Program-made: the position numbers and the translations under genes
Shown here: in pieces, positions 41,531 through 53,717 of the stretch
Numbering within the stretch: position 1 is the first letter of the stretch
Layout of the letters: each line of letters opens with the position of its first letter
Notes under the pieces: model-generated
Told to the model about the DNA's origin: nothing
The model's database searches: none
What the model saw: only the letters and a program-made list of their open reading frames with translations
Assembly: GCF_900188225.1 (NCBI RefSeq)
Contig: NZ_FZOC01000007.1
Coordinates: 62,001-126,000 of the forward strand
Direction of reading: 5' to 3'
Length of the DNA: 64,000 nucleotides
Source: Humidesulfovibrio mexicanus
GTDB taxonomy: Bacteria > Desulfobacterota > Desulfovibrionia > Desulfovibrionales > Desulfovibrionaceae

Positions 41531-44500
41531 TCAACGGGCAACACTTGGGCAAAACCGTATGCGCACCACAACGCCCTCCGGGCCGCTCTCAAGGTCCAGC
41601 TGGCCGCCCAGTTGGTGGCGCACCAGCCCGAACATGAGCTTCAGCCCCAGACCGGAGGCGTGCTCCGGTTCCAGGCCCGCTGGCAGGCCGGGGCCGTGGT
41701 CCTTGAGTTCGATGCGCACGCGGCCGTCCGCTTCGCGGCAGGCGTCGAGCACGACGCGGCCCCGCGCCTCGCCCTGGCGGCCGTGCTTGAAGGCGTTGGC
41801 CAGGGCCTCGTTGAGCGCCAGGCCAAGGGGCACGGCCTGGTCCAGCCCCAGGCTCAGCCCCTCCAACTCCACCCTGGCCTCGAAGGACATGTCCCCGGAG
41901 TAGACCTCGCGCAGCTGGCGGACCAGGGCGCGCACGTAGCGCTCCAGGTCGATGCCCCGCCCCGCCCCGGCGCCCTCCGCCGCTCCGCTGTGCAACTGGG
42001 CGTGCACCAGGCTCATGGCCTGCACCTTGGCCCGCACCTCGCTCAGGCTCAGGCGGGCCTGGGGATCCTCCATCCGCCGCACGGCCATGTCCAGCAGCGA
42101 GGTGACCACCTGCAGGTTGTTCTTGACCCGATGCTGCACCTCGCGAAGCAGGGCGTCCTTTTCGCGCAGCGAGGCGCGGATGCGCTCGTCGTCGCGCCTG
42201 CCGCGCACGATGCGCCACATCCCGTCCATCAGCAGGGAGACCTGCAGCGTGTCGTCGGGCGTATAGGGCGCGGCCTTGCCCATGAGGGCCAGCACAGCCG
42301 CGGGCCTCTCGCCATCAAGGGCGGGCACCCCCAGAAAACGGTCCAGCCCCATGTATCCCTCTGGGCTGCCGTTGGCGGACATGGTGAAGTCGTTCAACAC
42401 CAGCGGCACCCCAGTGGCGTGCACCACGGCCCAGGGGGTGTGCGTCCCCGCGGGGAGCGGTCCCAAGGGGTCCGGAACGCCATGCCATGCCAGGGGCGTC
42501 AGCTGTTGGCCGTCCGCAGAGACAAAAAACAGCGCCCCGCCCCCGCTGGCCGTCAGCCGCAGGGCCTCCCGCAGGGCAAAGGCCGCCATTTCCGCCTCGC
42601 CCACGCCGTCAAGGCTTGTCAGCTCGTACAGCGCCTCGAAGCGCGCCTGGTTGCGGCGCAGCTCCGCCTCCATGCGCTTGCGCTCCGAGAGGTCCAGGGC
42701 GGTGCAGACCAGCCCCTCGTACCCGCCGCTCTCGTTCAAAATGGGGGAAGAGCTCACCTGCACGGGCAGCACGCCGCCATCCCGGCGCCTGAGGTCGTAG
42801 TCGCCGGTGCCGGAAAGCCCCAGGCGCCGCTCGCGCAGTCTGCTCAGCGCCCGCGGCAGCTCCGCGCTGTCGAGCACCTCCCAGGGCCGCATCGCGGCGA
42901 GTTCCTCCGCCCCGTAGCCAAGCATCTTCGTCAGGTATTCGTTCACAAAGATGGTCCGGTTCTCGCGATCCACGGCCCACACGCCCTCGTGCATGGATTC
43001 CAGCAGCTTGCGCGACGTGCGCTCGCTCTTGCGCAGGGCCTCCTCGGCCAGTATGCGCGCCACGGCAAGGGAAAGCAGCGCCGCGACCCGCTCCAGCAGC
43101 AAAGCCGCGCGGGGCCGCTGCTCCGCCTCCAAGTCCAGGGCCACCAGCCGCCCAAGCTCCTCGCCCGCGTGCAGCACGGGCACGCTCACCGCGTTGTCCT
43201 GGGCCAGTTCGCGGCAGGGGCTTCCGGACGGGCTTAAGTAGCGGCCGGTCTCCGGGTCGCGGCGTTGCGCCAGCACCTGCCCCGCGCCGGTGATGTCCTC
43301 GGCGCAGGCCGAGGCGAGCACCTGGACCTGGGCGAGGTCCGCGCATTCCAACAGCAAGAGCGACAATCGCCCCAAGGCCGCCTCCACGCGCTCCATGCGC
43401 CTGCGCGGCCGTATGTCGCGCGCGGTGCCGCAATAGCCGGTGATGCGCCCCGACGCATCGCGCAGGCACCGGGCCAGCGCCTCGACCGGGACGGCCCGGC
43501 CGCCAACGTGGATCACCTCCAGGGTGAGCAGCTGGGGCTCGTCCTCCGGGGAGCCGGGCGCGGCCCTGCCCCATTGCTCGATGGTGCGGCCGATGGTCCC
43601 GATGGACTCCTTGCTGAGCACGCTGTCCAAGGGGCGCTGGAGCAGCGCGTCCACGCTCTCCCCGGCCAGAGCCTCGGCGGAGGGGCTCAGATAGGTCCAG
43701 CGCAGATGGGCGTCCAAGGCCCAGATGACATCGACCATGTTCTCCGCCAGCAGGGCGTACCTGCGGTTGGATTCGCGCAGGGCGTCCTCCAGGCGGCGGC
43801 GTTCGGTGTTGTCGCACAGCACGGCCTGCAGCGCGGCGGGGCGGCCCTTGGCGTCGCGCAGGATGGAGCCGCGCTGCAGCACCCAGCGGCGGTTGCCCCA
43901 GGCGTCCAGCACCTCGAACTCGTACTCCGGGCGGATGACGCCCCGGGACATCTCCTCCAGCCAACGCGCCCGCTGCGGCCGCCATTCCGGCAGCACCGCG
44001 TCCAGCGCGCGCGAGGTCTCGGCGTAGAATTCCTCCGGCCGGTAGCCGAAAATGCGCGTCATGCCCGGACTGACGTATTCGTGCCGGTGGGTGCGCAAAT
44101 TGATGCGGACGATGACCTGATCGGTCCAGTTCTCGGCCAGGTCGCGAAAACGGGTCTCGCTTTCCCGCAGGGCGGCCTCGGCGCGCTTGCGGCTGGTCAC
44201 ATCGCGCAGAATGAACTGGGCCACCATGTCCTGGCCGGGGGCGCGCGGCCGGAGCACGCCGCTGAGATGGATCCAGCGCTGCCCGCCGTGCTTGTGGGCC
44301 AGCTCCAGTTCATAAAAGGGCTGAAGGGTTCCGGAACGGATCTCCGCAAACCAGCGTCGGGCCTTGTCGCGCCAATGCGGCGGCACGACGCGCCGCGCGA
44401 GGTCGGGATCGTCGTAGAACTCTTGCGGGGTGTAGCCGAGCATCCGCTCCATGCTGGGGCTCACGTATTCGTGCCGCCCGGCGTCGAGGTTCACGGACAG

Positions 44501-45037
44501 GGCCACCTGGTCCGGCCACAGTTCGATGAGCTGGCGGAAATGCTCCTTGCTTTCGCGCAGCTCCGTCTGGGCCTGGCGCAGCTCCGTTATGTCCGTCGCC
44601 ACGCCCTGCAAAAGCCAGGCGGCGCCGTCCGGCGTGGCGCCGCGAATCTGCCGCTGGCGCACCCAACGCAGGCTGCCGTCAGGCCCGATGACCTGGAACT
44701 CGTACGCCTCGGCCACTTGTCCCCGGTCGATCTCGGCAAGCCAGACGGCCATCTGCTCGCGCCAGGCCGGGGCCACGCAACGCAGAAAGGTGCCCGCATC
44801 GCGGTAGAACGCCTCCGGAGAAAACCCGCACAGGGCCTCCACCGAGGGGCTGATGTACTCGTAGCGGGCCCCGGGCAGGCGAACCGAGAAGTACACGTCG
44901 CTGGAATTTTCGGCCAGCATCCTAAGCCTGGCGTCGCGCCGGGTGAACGTACGGGCGCGGGGCTTGCACAGTCTGCGGCGCTGATGTATAGACCCCTTCG
45001 ACATGGCTGCAGGCTGCTGTTTGGCGGTGAGGCGCAT
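41531..45037 (-). CDS. Large soluble multi-PAS/GAF histidine kinase, HisKA_2 type
   Basis: 1168 aa without transmembrane spans. Four PAS/PAC units (about 40-155, 165-290, 300-420, 425-545), a GAF (about 550-700), a fifth PAS (about 705-825), a second GAF (about 835-960), then HisKA_2 with [13 protein letters not shown] (His near 977) and HATPase ending at the C-terminus. The repeated YEYVSPS/YISPS motifs mark the PAS copies as related by duplication. It is a cytoplasmic integrator of several signals; no receiver gene is adjacent. Start is uncertain: 45037 or 45004; neither has a clear ribosome site. Confidence 0.88.
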   Translation of the reverse strand: MRLTAKQQPAAMSKGSIHQRRRLCKPRARTFTRRDARLRMLAENSSDVYFSVRLPGARYEYISPSVEALCGFSPEAFYRDAGTFLRCVAPAWREQMAVWLAEIDRGQVAEAYEFQVIGPDGSLRWVRQRQIRGATPDGAAWLLQGVATDITELRQAQTELRESKEHFRQLIELWPDQVALSVNLDAGRHEYVSPSMERMLGYTPQEFYDDPDLARRVVPPHWRDKARRWFAEIRSGTLQPFYELELAHKHGGQRWIHLSGVLRPRAPGQDMVAQFILRDVTSRKRAEAALRESETRFRDLAENWTDQVIVRINLRTHRHEYVSPGMTRIFGYRPEEFYAETSRALDAVLPEWRPQRARWLEEMSRGVIRPEYEFEVLDAWGNRRWVLQRGSILRDAKGRPAALQAVLCDNTERRRLEDALRESNRRYALLAENMVDVIWALDAHLRWTYLSPSAEALAGESVDALLQRPLDSVLSKESIGTIGRTIEQWGRAAPGSPEDEPQLLTLEVIHVGGRAVPVEALARCLRDASGRITGYCGTARDIRPRRRMERVEAALGRLSLLLLECADLAQVQVLASACAEDITGAGQVLAQRRDPETGRYLSPSGSPCRELAQDNAVSVPVLHAGEELGRLVALDLEAEQRPRAALLLERVAALLSLAVARILAEEALRKSERTSRKLLESMHEGVWAVDRENRTIFVNEYLTKMLGYGAEELAAMRPWEVLDSAELPRALSRLRERRLGLSGTGDYDLRRRDGGVLPVQVSSSPILNESGGYEGLVCTALDLSERKRMEAELRRNQARFEALYELTSLDGVGEAEMAAFALREALRLTASGGGALFFVSADGQQLTPLAWHGVPDPLGPLPAGTHTPWAVVHATGVPLVLNDFTMSANGSPEGYMGLDRFLGVPALDGERPAAVLALMGKAAPYTPDDTLQVSLLMDGMWRIVRGRRDDERIRASLREKDALLREVQHRVKNNLQVVTSLLDMAVRRMEDPQARLSLSEVRAKVQAMSLVHAQLHSGAAEGAGAGRGIDLERYVRALVRQLREVYSGDMSFEARVELEGLSLGLDQAVPLGLALNEALANAFKHGRQGEARGRVVLDACREADGRVRIELKDHGPGLPAGLEPEHASGLGLKLMFGLVRHQLGGQLDLESGPEGVVVRIRFCPSVAR

Positions 45038-45151
45038 GTCCACTGGGTAGCGCACTTCGGTCCATTTTGCACCTCCGCAAAAAAAGCGGTGAGCGAGGGC
45101 CGAAAGGTGTTGACACGGCAAAAGGCCGCGGATAAAAGGGCCTTCCCTCGG

Positions 45152-45242: not shown

Positions 45243-45318
45243 GTCCCCATCGTCTAGTGGCCTAGGACACTGGCCTCTCACGCCGGCAACAGGGGTTCGA
45301 ACCCCCTTGGGGACGCCA
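45243..45318 (+). tRNA. tRNA-Glu (CUC)
   Basis: 76 nt with CCA encoded. Acceptor GTCCCCA/TGGGGAC, anticodon loop CCTCTCACG with CTC, T arm GGGGTTCGAACCCCC. It lies 15 bp after tRNA-Lys. The prophage integrase gene ends 14 bp downstream, so its 3' half is the probable attachment site. Confidence 0.97.
45285..45318. other. Probable prophage attachment site (tRNA-Glu 3' end)
   Basis: Tyrosine recombinases commonly integrate into the T-arm/3' end of a tRNA gene and lie next to the junction. The integrase here is convergent with tRNA-Glu and 14 bp away. The matching repeat at the other prophage end is outside the window, so the core cannot be delimited. Confidence 0.4.
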
Positions 45319-45332
45319 GCAAATCCACATGG

Positions 45333-46508
45333 TTACAGCCCCGTAGCCATTGTTTCAGCCAGCGGATACACTGGCGGATATCCAGAGCCCTCGGAAGTAA
45401 CGATTCCGAGGGCTCTGCCGTTCTGGGCGAAGGGGATAACCTTCGCCTGTCCTCTGCCTCTCGTGGCCGCTTCCTGAAGCCGGTCCAGGTCGCAGCCGAG
45501 ACTCTTCAAGTAGCGCTCCGTGGTGGACGCGCTTTCATGGCGCAGCCACTTCTGGATCTCGTGCACAAGGGCGCCGCCCTTGTAGAGCATGACCGCCCGT
45601 AAGTGCCGGATGGAGTGGAAGCCAAACGGCCGCACCTCGGCCCGCTTGCACAGCTTGCGCATGACGTGCTGGCGGTACAGGAAGCGGCCGCCGGGGTTGT
45701 GGTTCGGACTCGGGCTGTCGTCCAGGCAGGTGAAGACGTACTCGGCGCTTTTGTACGGCCGCGCGTCCCACCACCAGACAAGGGCCTGACGCAGCTCCGG
45801 CAGGATGGGAAGTGGGTCAACCCTCCAGGATGAGCCGCGGGTCTTCCGCGTCCGCAGGAGCAAGACATTCGCCTTGAAGTCGACATCCGCCCAGGTGAGG
45901 CGGAAGAGCTCGTCCCGTCGGGCCGCAGTGTACAGGTAGGCCATCAGCATCACGCGGTCCTGCCCTTCGGTTTTCTCCAAGACCTTCCAGAACTCCTCTT
46001 CGGTGGGCACATGACGCGGGTTGCGCTCCTCCGGGAACCTGTCCACGTCCAGGAACGGATTGCCCGTTTTCGGGAAGCCGTCCATGAACTTTCGGCCCCA
46101 GGTCCAGCCCGCAGCCAGGTTCTTGCGGTCGCGGTTGGCCGAATAGCCCGAGCGGGCTTTGCACTGGCCACTCAGGAAGCCCAGGGCCACCCCTGGCGTG
46201 ATCTTGGTCACGTCCAGGTCCCCCAGGGCCTTGATGAGCCGGGTCATGGCCGTCCGCTTTTCGTCGAAGGTGCTATCGGAGAAGCGCACTTGCACATCCT
46301 CCAAATAGGCCAGGGTCCAGTCCGAGAGCTTCAGCACGGGCGTGCTTACCTGTTGCACAGCCTCGCGCTTCCACGTCTCTTCCCACAGCACGGCCTTGCG
46401 GTGCTCTTTTGCCCCGCTCCCGAACCACTTGCTGGCCACGATCTTCCCGCTGACCTTCACAACGGCGCGCCACCTCTTGGTTCCACGGCGTGTGGTCTCT
46501 GTTGGCAT
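45333..46508 (-). CDS. int: Phage tyrosine-recombinase integrase
   Basis: 391 aa. An N-terminal arm-binding part, a SAM-like core-binding domain (about 60-150) and a catalytic domain with arginine in YTAARRDELFRLTW (near 205), HSIRHLR (near 320) and the nucleophile tyrosine in SASTTERYLKSL. It inserts and excises the prophage at tRNA-Glu. GAGGAG precedes ATG 46508. It is the last gene of the early operon, and its start overlaps the preceding HTH gene. Confidence 0.93.
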   Translation of the reverse strand: MPTETTRRGTKRWRAVVKVSGKIVASKWFGSGAKEHRKAVLWEETWKREAVQQVSTPVLKLSDWTLAYLEDVQVRFSDSTFDEKRTAMTRLIKALGDLDVTKITPGVALGFLSGQCKARSGYSANRDRKNLAAGWTWGRKFMDGFPKTGNPFLDVDRFPEERNPRHVPTEEEFWKVLEKTEGQDRVMLMAYLYTAARRDELFRLTWADVDFKANVLLLRTRKTRGSSWRVDPLPILPELRQALVWWWDARPYKSAEYVFTCLDDSPSPNHNPGGRFLYRQHVMRKLCKRAEVRPFGFHSIRHLRAVMLYKGGALVHEIQKWLRHESASTTERYLKSLGCDLDRLQEAATRGRGQAKVIPFAQNGRALGIVTSEGSGYPPVYPLAETMATGL

Positions 46509-46704
46509 CGATGAATCTCCTCATTCGGTTTTCAAAGAACCGCCAGCGTCCCGGAGCAACCTCCACGCCGCCAAGTGAGCCACCATATTTCTTCACAGTG
46601 CGCACGTCCACACCCAGGAACGCGGCCACGGCCTGTGGGGTCATGGGCTCGCCATACTCGAGCTGGAGCCGCCGCACGGCGTCGATGCTTGCCTTTTCGT
46701 TCAT
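46273..46704 (-). CDS. Helix-turn-helix protein, possible excisionase
   Basis: 143 aa if the frame is used to its stop. Residues 1-65 form a MerR/excisionase-like HTH (EPMTPQAVAAFLGVDVRTVKKYGG, then a wing and RRFIDANR). ATG overlaps the ThiF stop as ATGA. The last 78 codons overlap the integrase start by 236 bp and look like low-complexity basic sequence, so only the N-terminal half may be meaningful. Its place just before int suits a directionality factor. Confidence 0.55.
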   Translation of the reverse strand: MNEKASIDAVRRLQLEYGEPMTPQAVAAFLGVDVRTVKKYGGSLGGVEVAPGRWRFFENRMRRFIDANRDHTPWNQEVARRCEGQREDRGQQVVRERGKRAPQGRAVGRDVEARGCATGKHARAEALGLDPGLFGGCASALLR

Positions 46705-47549
46705 GCCCTTCCCTCCCAACCCATGCGCCGCCAGGTCTCGGGGTCGATGCGCAGGGGCGTTGCCAAACACTGCTCCAGGTTGAGGAACAGACCGTGGTGC
46801 TCGATGTGGCCCTGGTGGACCAGCCGCCAAAGCAGCGATAGGCCGAAGTCGGCCAGGGTCACGTTCATGTACAGATCCTGCTTGGCCAGGGCCTCGGCCA
46901 TGCCGCAGGAAGGTTCGGAGTCGTCGTCCTGGGTCGCTATGTCCGGGTACAGGTCCAACACCGTGGGCAGTTCCTGCGCCGCTGTCTCGCGCCCCTCGCA
47001 CTCGTCCACGAACTCGGTCAGCGTCACGGACCTGGCCAGCGTCTCCACCTTGCCGTTGGTGCCGAGAACCACCTGGCCGGTGGACCGGGAGTTGCCGAAG
47101 TCGAGCCAATAGCTCGCGTCCTTGAGCCACCCCTTGAAGGCGTGGCCGATTTTATGGCGCGCCCGGCCGGAGTCCACGCACCCCACCACCATGTCGAGCA
47201 GGCCATGCCGCTGCCAGGCCAAGCCATCGGGCTTGCCGGAGCCGATGGCCACGGGCAGGGCCTCCCAGTCTAGGGCGAAAAAACGGTTGATGCGCGTCAC
47301 CAGCACGCTGACCTTGTGCTGGCCAACGTCTCCGGGCGAAAAGGACTGCCGCCCCACGTTTGAGGGGCTCACGCGGTCATGGTCGGCCACCACCACAAAC
47401 AGGCCCGGCCGACCCAGGGCGCGCAGGGCGTGGTCCATTCTGGCCAGCCCGTTGAGCACCTGGCTGCCCGTGCCACCCGCGCCGACAAGCAAGACGCCCA
47501 CGCGGTGCGGGGCGTTGGCCGAAAGAGCCTTCGAGGCGTAGTGCCGCAT
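46701..47549 (-). CDS. PRTRC-system ThiF (E1-like adenylating) protein
   Basis: 282 aa. Rossmann loop VGAGGTGSQ (residues 22-30), ADHDRVSPSNVGRQSF (55-70) with the aspartate and Asn-x2-Arg-Gln typical of ThiF/E1 ATP sites, GCVDSGRARHKI (123-134) and SEPSCGMAEALAKQDLYMN (211-229), in which Cys215 occupies a position that is a conserved cysteine in PRTRC ThiF proteins. E1-like enzymes activate the C-terminal glycine of a ubiquitin-like partner. The start 2 bp after PRTRC-B and the co-linear C protein make those the expected partners. Confidence 0.85.
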   Translation of the reverse strand: MRHYASKALSANAPHRVGVLLVGAGGTGSQVLNGLARMDHALRALGRPGLFVVVADHDRVSPSNVGRQSFSPGDVGQHKVSVLVTRINRFFALDWEALPVAIGSGKPDGLAWQRHGLLDMVVGCVDSGRARHKIGHAFKGWLKDASYWLDFGNSRSTGQVVLGTNGKVETLARSVTLTEFVDECEGRETAAQELPTVLDLYPDIATQDDDSEPSCGMAEALAKQDLYMNVTLADFGLSLLWRLVHQGHIEHHGLFLNLEQCLATPLRIDPETWRRMGWEGRA

Positions 47550-47551
47550 CG

Positions 47552-48292
47552 CTAAAACCCCTCCTGTTGCAGGTAGCCGCCAAGAGTCACGCCCACGGGC
47601 ACCAGCCGGGCTAAGGGGAACTTGCCCTTGCCCCCGACCAGCGTCTCCCATAGAGGCTTGAGCGAACCGCCCTTGACCCGAGCCTCTCCGCCCAAGTGCG
47701 CGCAGAACTCCGAGTTCCAGAACGCTCTCTCGGCCTCCTCGATGCGCCGCGCGGCCGTTCCCTCGCGCTCAAAGCGCGCCGAGCCCATGCACATGCGGCC
47801 GTCCTGGAAGCAGTTCCAGAGGGGGAGCTGAAAAAGCGGCGCCTTGGCCAGCGGCCGCTTCGCGCCGGTCTTGAGGGCGAAGACAAGAAGGCTGGCACCC
47901 TTGAGCGCGAAGAACAGCGCCGGAACGTGGGCCGTGCCCGAAGGCAAGCCGATGTCCGCCGCAAGGCGCAGGTGGTGCCGCCCGGCCGGAACCCACCACG
48001 CCAGATCCCCGGAAGGCGCGGCGGCCAGGATGCGCTCGGGCAGCATGCCGTGCCCCACCGCACGGGTTTCCTCGTCCAGCGCCTTGGCCAGCCTCCGGGC
48101 GGCGCGCAGCGACAAGGGTTTGCCCGCCAGCAGCACGGGCTTTCCGCGCGAGACGGCCACCGCGTGAGTTTCCACATAGATCCCGCCGGAACGTCGTCCG
48201 CCGAGGGTGTGGACGCCAAGGTGCTCCGGCTCCCCCTGGACGTAGACGGCCAGCATCTGCCGCAGTGCGTAGTCACTATCGGGGATCGTCAT
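47552..48292 (-). CDS. PRTRC-system protein B (E2-like)
   Basis: 246 aa. It shows GGIYVETHAVAVSRG, then ALFFALKGASLLVFAL and PLWNCFQDGRMCMGSARF. Cys168 in GRMCMG is placed like the active-site cysteine of E2-type folds (xVCxG); Cys161 is a second candidate. PRTRC-B belongs to the family Pfam names prokaryotic E2 family D, as I recall it. It overlaps the end of PRTRC-F by 17 bp. E2 activity is inferred; no enzyme of this family is known to me to be fully characterised. Confidence 0.82.
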   Translation of the reverse strand: MTIPDSDYALRQMLAVYVQGEPEHLGVHTLGGRRSGGIYVETHAVAVSRGKPVLLAGKPLSLRAARRLAKALDEETRAVGHGMLPERILAAAPSGDLAWWVPAGRHHLRLAADIGLPSGTAHVPALFFALKGASLLVFALKTGAKRPLAKAPLFQLPLWNCFQDGRMCMGSARFEREGTAARRIEEAERAFWNSEFCAHLGGEARVKGGSLKPLWETLVGGKGKFPLARLVPVGVTLGGYLQQEGF

Positions 48293-49355
48293 CTATCACT
48301 CCGCAAGCCTGCTCGGCCAAGGTGTTGAAGCCTTCCAGGGCCAGGGCCAGGGCGCGCAGGCCGACCGAGCGGGTAAGAGCCTTCGCGCGGAGTTCCTCCA
48401 GACCGTTCGGCCGGGTCCTGCGGAGCTTGCCGCCGATGGAGGGCAGCATGAAGCCGACGTTGTTCAGCTGGTCGTTGAACGCTTCGGTGCTGAGATCGAG
48501 AAAGCGCGGGGAACACCAGTGGAGCGAGAACAAGGAAATAAAAAGCTCGCCGTCGAAGTCGCCGCTCTCGATCGACTCCTGGTCCACCAGCTTCCAGAGC
48601 GGACCGAGATCGCGCATCGCTGTCAGGATCAGCCGCCCCCAGGCCACCCACTCCGGCCCCACGGCGGCGCGGCGCACCCGACCCTCGAAGCGGCGGGCAA
48701 GGTCCTTGCGCGCCGCCCGCCCGCGCACGCCGCCCAGCACCTGTAGGGCCACATCGCGCAGCTCTTCCGCCTCGCTGTCGCGCACCCCCACCTGCACAGG
48801 CCCTTCGTCCTCGTCCGCGCCGCCATCGCCATAGCCCGCGCAACATTCCTCGAACCAGTCCGTCCACCGATCGAAGGAATCCACTCCAAGGCTGGTCAGC
48901 AGGCCCAAGCCATCGGAAGCATAGTCCCACAGCCCGCGCGAAAAGCCGCGCAGCCGAGGCAGGTGGCGCAGGTCCGCCCAATACAGCTTGAGGTCCTCGG
49001 GGATGGCGTCCTGCAGGCAGACTTCAGCAAAGACAAAGAAGCCGCGCTCATCCTGGCCAATGGTCACGGCTGGGCAGTCGGGGGCGCAGGAAAGAACCTG
49101 TCTGTAGTAACGCCAGCAGAATGTGAGTACCTCAATGGACGACTCCTGGCCGGTCCAGTCCCGTTTGGCCTCAGGAATCCGCCAGTCTCCCAATTCCACC
49201 TGCTTCTTGAACAAAGGCCAGAGGTCCAGAAGCGCCCGGTCAGGGTCTCCCGGGAACGAACTGAGGCCTTGCCGGCACTCCACCTCATGCCACGGACGCA
49301 TCAGAGGCAGGGAAGAAATGTTCGGCAGGGTCAGACCAGAGGCGAGAGCAGGCAT
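48276..49355 (-). CDS. PRTRC-system protein F
   Basis: 359 aa, largely helical, no known catalytic motif. Segments such as YRQVLSCAPDCPAVTIG, FNDQLNNVGFMLPSIGGKLRR and SVGLRALALALEGFNTLAE match the PRTRC-F pattern. Function unknown; always found with C, B and ThiF. It overlaps the preceding small gene by 25 bp and PRTRC-B by 17 bp. Confidence 0.72.
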   Translation of the reverse strand: MPALASGLTLPNISSLPLMRPWHEVECRQGLSSFPGDPDRALLDLWPLFKKQVELGDWRIPEAKRDWTGQESSIEVLTFCWRYYRQVLSCAPDCPAVTIGQDERGFFVFAEVCLQDAIPEDLKLYWADLRHLPRLRGFSRGLWDYASDGLGLLTSLGVDSFDRWTDWFEECCAGYGDGGADEDEGPVQVGVRDSEAEELRDVALQVLGGVRGRAARKDLARRFEGRVRRAAVGPEWVAWGRLILTAMRDLGPLWKLVDQESIESGDFDGELFISLFSLHWCSPRFLDLSTEAFNDQLNNVGFMLPSIGGKLRRTRPNGLEELRAKALTRSVGLRALALALEGFNTLAEQACGVIDDDPR

Positions 49356-49567
49356 CGCGGCGTCTCCATGGCTTTGGGCAGCTCCACGCCGCGCATGTGC
49401 GCGGCTGCGCCCTTGGATTCTTCGAGCAGCGCCGCGAAGGCCCTGTGCGCGCGCATGGGGCGCGTCTCCGCGCCCGGAGCCGAAGGGTGGCTCTCAGGCT
49501 GCGCGCCGCGCGCGCCCCGCTTGGGCGCTGCGCGGCGCAACCTCTTAATGTACTCCGCCGTGGTCAT
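49331..49567 (-). CDS. Small basic protein (78 aa) within the PRTRC operon
   Basis: ATG overlaps the PRTRC-C stop as ATGA and the 3' end overlaps PRTRC-F, so it is translationally coupled to both. It is Arg/Ala-rich with the start MTTAEYIKRLRRAAPKRG. I know no relatives. It may be a phage-specific insert in the cassette. Confidence 0.5.
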   Translation of the reverse strand: MTTAEYIKRLRRAAPKRGARGAQPESHPSAPGAETRPMRAHRAFAALLEESKGAAAHMRGVELPKAMETPRCLLSPLV

Positions 49568-49788
49568 CCCTTGACTCCGACGCTGCCGGTGAAAACGTAG
49601 ACCTGTTTGCCGTCCTTAACCTCCGGTCCTTCGACGCCGGCGCTGGCCAGCTCGGGGTAGACCTGGGCGTAATGGGCGCGGACCTCCTCCGGGCTCATGC
49701 CCGTGCCGGGGTCAGTCAAGACGCGCTCATTGCCCTTGCCCTGGCGGGCCACAAACTCACGCGGGAGAGCTTTGACTTCAAGCGCCAT
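49564..49788 (-). CDS. PRTRC-system protein C (ubiquitin-like)
   Basis: 74 aa, the length of ubiquitin. It begins MALEVKALPREF, has SPEEVRAHYAQVYPELASA and VEGPEVKDGKQVYVF, and ends ...GSVGVKG, with glycine as the final residue. This is the PRTRC-C pattern, placed by Pfam with prokaryotic ubiquitin-like beta-grasp proteins as I recall. The terminal glycine fits activation by ThiF. GGAGGAAGAGG precedes ATG 49788, which lies inside the end of PRTRC-E (11-bp overlap). Confidence 0.85.
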   Translation of the reverse strand: MALEVKALPREFVARQGKGNERVLTDPGTGMSPEEVRAHYAQVYPELASAGVEGPEVKDGKQVYVFTGSVGVKG

Positions 49789-50302
49789 GATCCTCTTCCT
49801 CCTGCTGCGCAGTTTCGACCGCGGCGGTCGCCGTGCCACCCGTTTCCGCGCAGGCGCTGCACAAGTCCGGTTCGACCCACGAGCAGCCGCCCGAGCAGGC
49901 CTGGTCATCGGTGCAGCCGCACTTGCGGCACGTGCGCGCAGACTCGGCCGGGTCGCTGTCCATGGTCAGGAACGAGGCCTGCGGCGCCACGGGCTTGGGG
50001 TCGGGCTTGGGCTCCTTGGCCTTGCCGCCCTTCTTCCCCCCTTCCATGGAGGCCTTGGCCTGGGACAAGTTGCTTGCCAACGCGGCCACATCGGGAGCGT
50101 ATGCCAGCACGGCGTCCAGAAACCCGGCTTCCAGTTCGGCCACCGGGCCACTCACGGACAAGGGGGTGAGCTTGGGCTCCTCACCCTTGCCCACGGGGAA
50201 CTCCGGCACCAGGACCACGGCCATGGTGTCCGCGCCGGTGCGGGTGAGGGCGAAGCGAACGCTGCCCTTGTCGGGAATCAGATCAAACAACTCCTTGAAC
50301 AT
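49778..50302 (-). CDS. PRTRC-system protein E with C-terminal zinc ribbon
   Basis: 174 aa. The start MFKELFDLIPDKG and the LEAGFLDAVLAYAPDVAALA region are those of PRTRC-E. A Lys/Pro-rich linker (about 95-115) leads to a C-terminal zinc ribbon CRKCGCTDDQACSGGCSW...LCSAC, a common phage module not usual in PRTRC-E as I know it. CTAGGAGG precedes ATG 50302, 8 bp after the clamp gene. Function unknown. Confidence 0.75.
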   Translation of the reverse strand: MFKELFDLIPDKGSVRFALTRTGADTMAVVLVPEFPVGKGEEPKLTPLSVSGPVAELEAGFLDAVLAYAPDVAALASNLSQAKASMEGGKKGGKAKEPKPDPKPVAPQASFLTMDSDPAESARTCRKCGCTDDQACSGGCSWVEPDLCSACAETGGTATAAVETAQQEEEDHGA

Positions 50303-50310
50303 GGTTCCTC

Positions 50311-51432
50311 CTAGTCTTTCATGATGAGCGGCATGAGGATCAACGCGTAGTCCCAATCCCCGTCATCCTGCCCGGTGATGAGGCACGGGCCTTTCTCGCC
50401 GCAAATATCCAGGCGCACGCGTTCGCTGGTGAGGTTGCGCAGCATGTCCGCGAGGGGCTTTACCGGCAGGGCCACACGCACGGGGTCGCCCTGGAAGTCC
50501 GACACGAGGGCTTCTTCGGCCTTGCCCTGGTCGGCCTGGGCCGAAAGCGCCACGCCATCGGCATCAGCGTTTGCGGTCAGCACCGCGCCGCTCATAACCT
50601 CGGTGGTGAACAGGGCAAGGCGGTCCAGGGCGGCGAGCAGGGCCTCGCGGCCAGCCTCCAGGCGCGAGGGCGCGGCCTCGGCCCTGGAAAGCAGCGCTCT
50701 GAACGAGGGGTAGCTCCAATCGCTGATGGGCAACGAGAACATTTCCTCCGCCGTGCGCAGATGCAGCCGCTTCGCGCCCACTGCGACCTGGACGCCGCCC
50801 GGAGGCAGCCAGCGCCGCAGCTCATCCACATAAGCCCAATGCAGCAGCAGGCCCGCGTCGGGCAGCAGAGAGCGCAACGTGGTGTCACGCACCAGGGTCC
50901 GCGCCAGCTGGTGGCCGTCGAGACCCACCATGGCCACTTCCTCGGACTTGGGGTCCGGGTCGATCTTGAGACAGGAAATGCCTTCCATGCCAGCATCGCG
51001 CCCGACGCAGAACAGCACGCGGTCAATGGCCTCGGCCAGCATCGCGCCATCCACGGCCAAGCCGCCCGCAGGCGGCTCCAGGGCAAGGCTCTCAGAGTCC
51101 CAGGCTGCTTCTGCGGCCAGGGTGTACTTGAGCTTTTCGCTCTTGAGCACGATGCTGCCGGCTTCGTCGGTCTGGAGGGTCAGGGGCCACGCCGGCAGGC
51201 GCTTGACCAGATTGTGCAGGAATTTGCCGCACACGGCGGTTTCGCCCGGCTCCTGCACCTCGGCCGGGACCTTGCCGCAGAACTCAATGCTGCCGTCGGT
51301 GGCCATGACCTTCAGCTCACCCTCGGCCGCGCTCAGGATCAGCGACCGGAACCCGGCCTGCCCTTTGCCGGATATGCGGGCCGCAGTGGCCAGCTGCGCC
51401 GCCAATGCGGCCTTCTCAATCTTGATCAACAT
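50311..51432 (-). CDS. DNA polymerase III beta-clamp (DnaN) homologue, phage-encoded
   Basis: 373 aa, the length of DnaN. Three repeated clamp domains are suggested (about 1-120, 121-245, 246-373): the start MLIKIEKAALAAQLATAARI, central VGLDGHQLARTLV, ending PCLITGQDDGDWDYALILMPL that matches the conserved DnaN C-terminus. A sliding clamp holds polymerases and repair factors on DNA. A phage copy beside a ubiquitin-like cassette is unusual. GAGGAGGGAG precedes ATG 51432. It may support phage replication with the host or a phage polymerase. Confidence 0.8.
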   Translation of the reverse strand: MLIKIEKAALAAQLATAARISGKGQAGFRSLILSAAEGELKVMATDGSIEFCGKVPAEVQEPGETAVCGKFLHNLVKRLPAWPLTLQTDEAGSIVLKSEKLKYTLAAEAAWDSESLALEPPAGGLAVDGAMLAEAIDRVLFCVGRDAGMEGISCLKIDPDPKSEEVAMVGLDGHQLARTLVRDTTLRSLLPDAGLLLHWAYVDELRRWLPPGGVQVAVGAKRLHLRTAEEMFSLPISDWSYPSFRALLSRAEAAPSRLEAGREALLAALDRLALFTTEVMSGAVLTANADADGVALSAQADQGKAEEALVSDFQGDPVRVALPVKPLADMLRNLTSERVRLDICGEKGPCLITGQDDGDWDYALILMPLIMKD

Positions 51433-53246: not shown

Positions 53247-53717
53247 TCACTTCGTCGGAATGCCCGCAATGCTCCGCAGTCCGTTGATGGTTCCCAGGGT
53301 TTCGTTGGCCACGTCCATCAACTCGCGGATGAGCTGGCGGGCCTCGCCCTTGTCTATCTTGTTGTTGCGGATGGCCTGTTCGCCGACCCGCGCCACGTCG
53401 CCCAGCTCTTTGAAGAGCACTCCCATGCGGAGCACGAGCGCAGCGCAGTCAAGGTCTTTGGGCACGCGCCGGAGCCCGCCCGCATCAGCGTGGGCCCTGG
53501 CCCAATCAAGAAGGATGGTGTTGCCAAGCACTGCGAGCAAGCGGGGGAAGTCCTCGAAGCACCACCAGTAACGCTCGCTGGTGAAAATTCGGTTGGCGTT
53601 GCTCCAACCCCAGCCCATGTCCTCCGCGATTTTTACGCGCGACTTGCCGGAGCGCGTCACGGCAAGGTCCAGGGCATCGAGAAGTGAGAGGTCCTGCAGG
53701 TCAATGTCGTCGCTCAT
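53247..53717 (-). CDS. CII-like phage regulatory protein
   Basis: 156 aa. An N-terminal HTH (SLLDALDLAVTRSGKSRVKIAEDMGWGWSNANRIF, about 11-45) and a helical tail match the CP76/CII regulators of P2- and Mu-like phages, which help set the lysis/lysogeny choice. GAGGAGAACC precedes the ATG. Confidence 0.7.
   Translation of the reverse strand: MSDDIDLQDLSLLDALDLAVTRSGKSRVKIAEDMGWGWSNANRIFTSERYWWCFEDFPRLLAVLGNTILLDWARAHADAGGLRRVPKDLDCAALVLRMGVLFKELGDVARVGEQAIRNNKIDKGEARQLIRELMDVANETLGTINGLRSIAGIPTK

Follow-up and report, generated by a model that had tools for sequence, protein, structure and literature searches.

Why would a temperate phage keep a gene for a sliding clamp in one row with genes for ubiquitin-like protein conjugation? 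The question is raised by a stretch of 64,000 nucleotides (nt) of Humidesulfovibrio mexicanus (contig NZ_FZOC01000007.1, positions 62,001 to 126,000), called the window below, in which a prophage encodes a DnaN-type clamp directly before a PRTRC cassette; positions are in window numbering, and L-numbers denote fetched loci. The clamp recurs beside PRTRC genes in part of the relatives and was recruited more than once, the E1-like and E2-like proteins conserve their key residues, and the tail of cassette protein E usually bears a motif resembling those that bind beta clamps. The locus may be tentatively described as a clamp-linked PRTRC ubiquitin-like conjugation cassette that lacks a JAB gene and belongs to a temperate phage's early operon, a description that falls slightly short of an even chance of being right in full.

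Gene content of the clamp-PRTRC operon

The genes form a leftward set at 46.3-51.4 kb on the minus strand, with neighbours overlapping or at most 8 nt apart (with the starts chosen here), a spacing from which co-transcription of the clamp and PRTRC genes is inferred. The beta sliding clamp (50311..51432, 373 amino acids or aa) is followed by PRTRC E (49778..50302, 174 aa), the ubiquitin-like PRTRC C (49564..49788, 74 aa, ending GVKG), a 78-aa open reading frame or orf (49331..49567), a divergent PRTRC F (48276..49355, 359 aa), the E2-like PRTRC B (47552..48292) and PRTRC ThiF, an E1-like adenylyltransferase (46701..47549). The 78-aa orf has no match in NCBIfam, Pfam or PHROGs, and its counterpart in the relative L007 is 76 aa long (L007:6950-7180). 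No profile match to A, the JAB/JAMM protein, was found in the cassette and none to ParB in the window; the clamp stands where ParB does in plasmid cassettes. An earlier note on this DNA had described an E1-like, E2-like and ubiquitin-like cassette beside a clamp, and family scans bear out its identification of ThiF, B, C, E and the clamp; the genes that it listed are present, but it overlooked the 78-aa orf and left the missing A and ParB unremarked.

ThiF matches TIGR03736 (7e-76, 254.8 bits against a cut-off of 144.75) as well as PF00899, and its profile finds Uba1, UBA5, Cap2, ThiF and MoeB among solved structures in the PDB. Of the ATP-site residues tested, one glycine, two aspartates and the arginine are invariant in 79/79 sequences, and the cysteine of the PSC motif (Cys215) is kept in 77 of the 79. 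B scores above the cut-off with PF14460 (Prok-E2_D, 2.9e-26) and just below it with TIGR03737 (9.4e-37, 126.6 bits against 131.45). Its Cys168 is kept in 74/75 sequences, as is Asn160 at position -8, the same spacing as that between the HPN asparagine and the catalytic cysteine of E2 enzymes. When the AlphaFold2 model of B (predicted local distance difference test, pLDDT, 88.7) was searched with Foldseek, no match fell under an E-value of 0.01 (UbcH7 at 0.43); in a second structure search, residues 82-230 were matched mainly by E2 enzymes (best Z 5.6, UBE2S).

C exceeds the cut-offs of both TIGR03738 (1.3e-17) and PF14454 (Prok_Ub, 2.7e-18), and its terminal residue G74 is at least 90% conserved. 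The AlphaFold2 model (pLDDT 79.5, low confidence at residues 71-74) has the order beta-beta-alpha-beta-beta; its neighbours in the first structure search included many ubiquitin-like proteins at weak scores, and those in the second were mostly protein G and protein L with few ubiquitins, at moderate Z. Protein G, protein L and ubiquitin are all beta-grasp proteins. The earlier note had proposed modelling both folds, and, with moderate scores, C came out beta-grasp-like and B E2-like. The label F, also taken from that note, found no match in NCBIfam, Pfam or PHROGs, but a profile-profile comparison with the PRTRC F family (hhalign probability 95.9%, E-value 5e-9) upholds it for a divergent F. 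It is very probable that the E1-like, E2-like and ubiquitin-like proteins form a conjugation core.

Origins of the clamp and recurrence of the pairing

The clamp is recognized by PF00712 and PF02768 over their cut-offs, with the middle domain under its own, by TIGR00663 (3.8e-33, under cut-off) and by the processivity factor family PHROG_947 (1.9e-42); it matches beta clamps in the PDB at 3.5e-17. P242 and P368, which we take to line the peptide pocket, are invariant in 14 aligned clamps. The protein is 63% identical to the clamp of L007, 34% to the DnaN of its own host, and 16-20% to the aligned clamps of Bacteroidota-type PRTRC cassettes. In a tree computed without gene copies and without L020, where the clamp is short and neither E nor C was found, the window-type clamps (window, L007, G080 and G245) join the DnaN proteins of the host's family (support 100/100), while four other PRTRC clamps, from three Bacteroidales genomes and the viral contig L009, join the DnaN proteins of Bacteroidales (94/97; 87/97 in a second tree). 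For the second tree and the approximately unbiased (AU) test, L008 and L014 were also removed for their long branches; a single clade of the 16 PRTRC clamps was rejected (p-AU 9.25e-5), long branches being present. Because one clade is rejected and the clamps group with separate DnaN proteins, the clamp is, on the evidence of these trees, an acquisition that the same operon has made more than once.

Relatives were collected by an alignment search with ThiF, which confirmed 121 viral contigs and at least 442 genome loci; the best 80 of each were kept. The kept loci are those most similar to the ThiF of the window, so that the fraction with a clamp is not a genome-wide rate. All fetched sequences were searched with iterated profiles built here from 2-6 seeds; with copies of the window excluded and L170, L005 and L006 left out of the counts, these profiles matched ThiF in 165 loci, B in 163, C in 152, E in 131 and A in 67. 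The alignment succeeded where single-sequence scans of viral contigs with ThiF or the clamp had found no relatives; the variability of the aligned clamps was too high for a scan of this kind.

A clamp gene lies inside the cassette in 11/80 viral loci and 5/80 genome loci, besides the window, L217 and L219. Counted by ThiF representatives in which E was found and the upstream sequence exceeds 1.5 kb, 16/52 have it. On the point of relatives, which the earlier note had named as a test, a clamp is present beside PRTRC cassettes in part of them. The order of the window's host has a PRTRC ThiF over the cut-off in 4/297 genomes, three of the four with a clamp in the cassette; the three besides the host's own are the sources of L217, L218 and L219, and the one without a clamp in the cassette, L218, comes from a genome with a single DnaN. 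The clamp is within 20 nt of E in 12/19 clamp loci (the gaps of L007 and L106 taken from coordinates); it is farther away in L008, L014, L106, L217 and L219, and L020 has no E found. In L140 its place is not before E but between C and F (L140:5326-6426). The viral contig L008 has profile matches to clamp, ParB and A as well as to the cassette proteins E, C, B and ThiF. The position directly before E is occupied by a D123-family gene with a weak ATP-grasp match in two viral contigs that are related to each other (L064:4727-5953). As the contig of L217 (L217:3485-9313) resembles a plasmid and has Rep3 and ParA-like genes, the pairing is not confined to phages. When the clamp of L126 was used as a query, 347 plasmid records were matched; of the first three, two carry annotation, in which dnaN is surrounded by housekeeping genes, and the third, unannotated, has no PRTRC profile match.

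A clamp-binding-like motif in protein E

E of the window is assigned by TIGR03741 (1.1e-11, 44.6 bits against a cut-off of 37.95), with Pfam PRTRC_E under cut-off; its N-terminal domain is conserved, and its tail is charged and variable. The beta-clamp-binding consensus is given as QLxLF, often C-terminal, in PMC4549789. The E tails of the window lineage contain QASFL (window), QASMF (L007, L219), TLSLL (L217) and QLGLL (L218, from a cassette without a clamp). The physical link that such a motif could provide between E and a clamp was overlooked in the earlier note. The tail of the window's E also has a cysteine-rich, zinc-ribbon-like pattern (CxxCGC...C...C) that is absent from the E of L007.

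Motifs were counted in 131 E proteins grouped in 62 clusters. The pair L[FW] occurs in the tail in 49/62 clusters (mean 7.2 and maximum 20 in 1000 shuffles) and within the last eight residues in 22/62 (shuffled mean 0.6, maximum 4). A looser [LMF][FWL] is present in 16/16 clamp-linked E tails. The extended pattern [STDNPG]L[FW] is found in the last eight residues of 17/62 E clusters, compared with 23/1886 other called orfs, some of which may be spurious. The residue at -1 was partly selected for in defining the sites, whereas glutamine at -3 (10/63 sites) and leucine at -2 (12/63) were not, and each is enriched about threefold. With a five-position QLxLF-like score, computed on 65 representatives, 25/65 E tails score at least 4 (shuffled mean 2.5, maximum 10), compared with 7/65 E N-terminal domains; in the last 60 residues, the same score is reached by 21/65 E proteins, 4/62 B, 4/62 ThiF, 2/62 C, 1/16 A and 4/13 clamps. 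Two of the 65 representatives (L001, L155) lack the hydrophobic pair in the tail. What is new here is that the tail of E usually bears a motif that looks clamp-binding, with or without a clamp gene in the cassette. That E binds a clamp is judged somewhat more probable than not.

Protein A and the end of protein C

A is absent from 88/152 cassettes with C, so that A is optional and the cassette of the window is an A-less variant. Another new observation is that the presence of A goes with the end of C: in A-less cassettes C ends at a glycine motif in 88/88 (87 with glycine, L022 with alanine), and in A-containing cassettes it runs beyond that motif in 48/64. The A-less ends read G.KG in 82/88 and vary in the other six (L022, L029, L059, L062, L063, L131); in L217, L218 and L219, all A-less, they are GVKG, GVKG and GRKG. 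Contrary to a strict rule, 16/64 A-containing cassettes have a C without a tail. On the ThiF tree, A changes state by gain or loss only four times, and an independent-pairs test of A against the C tail was not significant (on the starred branches, one or two pairs agree and none oppose); since with four changes this test cannot reach significance, the association stays suggestive. It is likewise suggestive that A is a processing peptidase of C and that A-less systems may encode C ready-made. A different peptidase is possible in some loci, because a RadC-type JAB was found by motif in the fetched stretch of 2/88 A-less and 7/64 A-containing loci, and one precedes E in L087 according to Pfam. 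L001, from Burkholderia phage BgVeeders33, has a PRTRC cassette annotated mostly as hypothetical proteins, with A present and a long C tail after GTKG.

Prophage setting

Downstream of ThiF, on the same strand, are an excisionase-like helix-turn-helix (HTH) protein (46273..46704) with only weak matches (PHROG_66, 7.5e-4; HTH_17, 1.7e-3, under cut-off) and a tyrosine integrase (45333..46508, minus strand; PF00589, PHROG_1). The integrase adjoins a tRNA-Glu gene (45243-45318), the 3′ end of which forms attL (45271..45322, plus strand), a 52-nt sequence repeated with 98% identity at about 83666-83716 (L221:666-716; contig 145666-145716). These repeats delimit a prophage of about 38.4 kb. Upstream of the clamp are a CII-like regulator in the leftward gene set (53247..53717, minus strand; PHROG_101, 5.8e-6) and a divergent phage repressor (54392..55171, plus strand; PHROG_4/8, about 7e-7), and because of these two proteins the leftward genes are read as an early operon, which their presence suggests. 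The prophage looks complete, with genes for tail, baseplate, sheath, head, protease, portal and primase/helicase. The term P2-like that the earlier note applied to it agrees with the contractile-tail and baseplate families present, to which the check was confined. Among 20 prophage proteins scanned, in a partial annotation, no clear DNA polymerase was found; one of the primase/helicase proteins has, as the third of its matches, a family labelled 'DNA polymerase/primase'. The earlier note had remarked that PRTRC cassettes are usually described from plasmids; with 121 viral contigs encoding a ThiF relative, the phage setting is not rare. Just outside the prophage, a 1196-aa orf (41531-45121) resembles, from its sequence, a multi-PAS sensor kinase.

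Comparison with known systems

The PRTRC cassettes of two plasmids of Betaproteobacteria, pMOL28 and one from Burkholderia contaminans, have the order ParB-E-C-F-B-A-ThiF, in which E, C, F, B and ThiF follow each other as they do here. The window differs in lacking ParB and A, in having a beta clamp in the place of ParB, in its extra 78-aa orf, and in a C that already ends at glycine. The Bacteroidota cassettes with a clamp (for example L119, L126, L166) have the order Clamp-E-C-F-B-ThiF, no A, and a C that ends G.KG as in the window, but their distant clamps group elsewhere. ParB is described as a CTP-dependent DNA clamp, and the possibility that ParB and the beta clamp are interchangeable 'ring' targets may serve as a lead. 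One of two PRTRC ParB proteins has the sequence GERRYR and the other GGRRYK.

Operon type 6d of Iyer et al. 2006 combines a ubiquitin-like protein with a C-terminal glycine, a helical protein, and E2-like, JAB and E1-like proteins (available part of PMC1779556). We take type 6d to be the PRTRC cassette, a matching made here, as the name PRTRC is not in that part of the source; type 6d as given there has a JAB gene, whereas the window has none. E and the clamp are not described in that part, and 'clamp' is found a single time in the text, as an author name. CBASS (the cyclic-oligonucleotide-based antiphage signalling system, with Cap2 and Cap3), Bil and Bub share with the window the bacterial logic of E1, E2 and ubiquitin-like proteins, and B and C of the window have no match to PADLOC models. 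The Bil operon (BilABCD) includes a JAB peptidase (PMC11354881), which the operon of the window lacks.

In eukaryotes, the sliding clamp PCNA is modified by ubiquitin and the small ubiquitin-like modifier (SUMO). If the reading proposed below is right, the window would resemble it in directing a ubiquitin-like system to a sliding clamp; it differs in having a bacterial beta clamp and in that no E3 was identified.

Proposed mechanism and alternatives

Conjugation itself, the binding of E to a clamp, the target and the benefit to the element are inferred in what follows. ThiF would adenylate the C-terminal glycine of C, C would then be transferred to Cys168 of the E2-like protein B, and B would join C to a lysine in some protein located at the sliding clamp. 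E would serve as a tether, its tail motif docking in the peptide pocket of a beta clamp: the clamp of the phage here, and the clamp of the host in cassettes without a clamp gene. The target would most likely be the clamp, or else a protein carried on it, and the effect would be to shift the partners of the replisome in favour of the element, as ubiquitin and SUMO do on PCNA; the likely gain would be control over which polymerase or repair protein uses the clamp during phage replication. That the target is at the clamp is a tentative proposal, somewhat less probable than its contrary. As to the earlier note's suggestion that C may be conjugated to the clamp itself, E might just as well recruit the machinery to proteins bound to the clamp, or be the substrate. 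The wider proposal, that all PRTRC cassettes are clamp-directed, with E docking on the element's own or the host's beta clamp and C conjugated there to choose the clamp's users, is possible but doubtful. Under this wider proposal, A would cut C after G.KG to mature it and would perhaps reverse the tag; in cassettes without A, C would be made in its mature form, and its attachment might be permanent.

Several results weigh against a clamp-directed system. The L[FW] pair in E is independent of the clamp gene, being present in 11/13 clusters with a clamp-linked member and in 38/49 without one; this is compatible with E docking on the clamp of the host, or with a role that has nothing to do with the clamp gene. 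A full score of 5/5 is reached by 1/65 E tails, within the range of the shuffles (maximum 2); some of the 63 motif sites are unlike clamp motifs; the pattern was defined after the tails had been inspected; and the clamps' own C-terminal ends, albeit a small sample, reach the motif rate of E. E was not found in 21/152 cassettes with C. The fold scores of B and C are only moderate, and nothing significant was found when the profiles of B, C and E were compared with solved structures. Of the ThiF representatives examined, 36/52 have no clamp in the cassette, and the plasmid records for B (60 of 61 listed) and for the window's clamp (24/24) share no accession. Finally, the primase and helicase genes are at the attR end of the prophage (L220:16014-18945), so that excision would put them just downstream of the integrase gene, and the clamp could then be a plain replication gene.

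The last points lead to the explanation that the clamp gene serves ordinary phage replication and happens to share the early operon, the ubiquitin-like cassette acting elsewhere. The prophage's own primase and helicase would join the operon after excision, and the cassettes without a clamp also speak for such hitchhiking; the recruitment of clamps more than once to the same place, the closeness of clamp and E in most clamp loci and the motif in E argue the other way, as do five deposited phage records whose clamps were found by similarity, none of which has a PRTRC gene in the 4.5-12 kb fetched. Hitchhiking is considered fairly unlikely. It is less probable still that E is the substrate, with lysines of E accepting C and the resulting conjugate plugging the clamp pocket and displacing host polymerases. 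Several E tails are lysine-rich near the motif (for example L010 and L014), and C is present in 131/131 loci with E, but in the cassettes where C has no E found it would need another substrate.

A role in defence or counter-defence by ubiquitin-like tagging, similar to CBASS Cap2 or Bil, has in its favour the resemblance of the ThiF profile to Cap2 and, weakly, to the E1-E2 models of PADLOC; the other eight proteins tested have no PADLOC match and the cassette sits in a phage early operon with a clamp, making this role quite improbable. The suggestion in the earlier note that the cassette blocks host defence is unsupported, the PADLOC matches of ThiF being weak and partial. Sulphur carrier chemistry of the ThiS/MoaD kind, in place of protein conjugation, would account for the membership of ThiF in its family and for the C-terminal glycine of C, but not for an E2-like protein with conserved cysteine and asparagine, for which we know of no role in sulphur transfer. 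Moreover, the scan of 10 proteins named no rhodanese and no cofactor gene, save the ThiF/MoeB families matched by the E1-like protein itself, and such chemistry is very improbable here.

Significance

No description of a link between PRTRC and a clamp was found in open-licence full-text searches, among the matches listed; PRTRC is used in the text of that literature but in no title among those matches. The recurrent clamp link and the motif in E turn the 'function unknown' of the widespread PRTRC cassettes into a prediction that can be tested at the bench. If the clamp-directed reading is true, tagging of clamps by ubiquitin-like proteins would exist on bacterial mobile elements and not only in eukaryotes, and the PRTRC cassettes would be a bacterial counterpart of PCNA signalling by ubiquitin and SUMO, kept on plasmids and phages.

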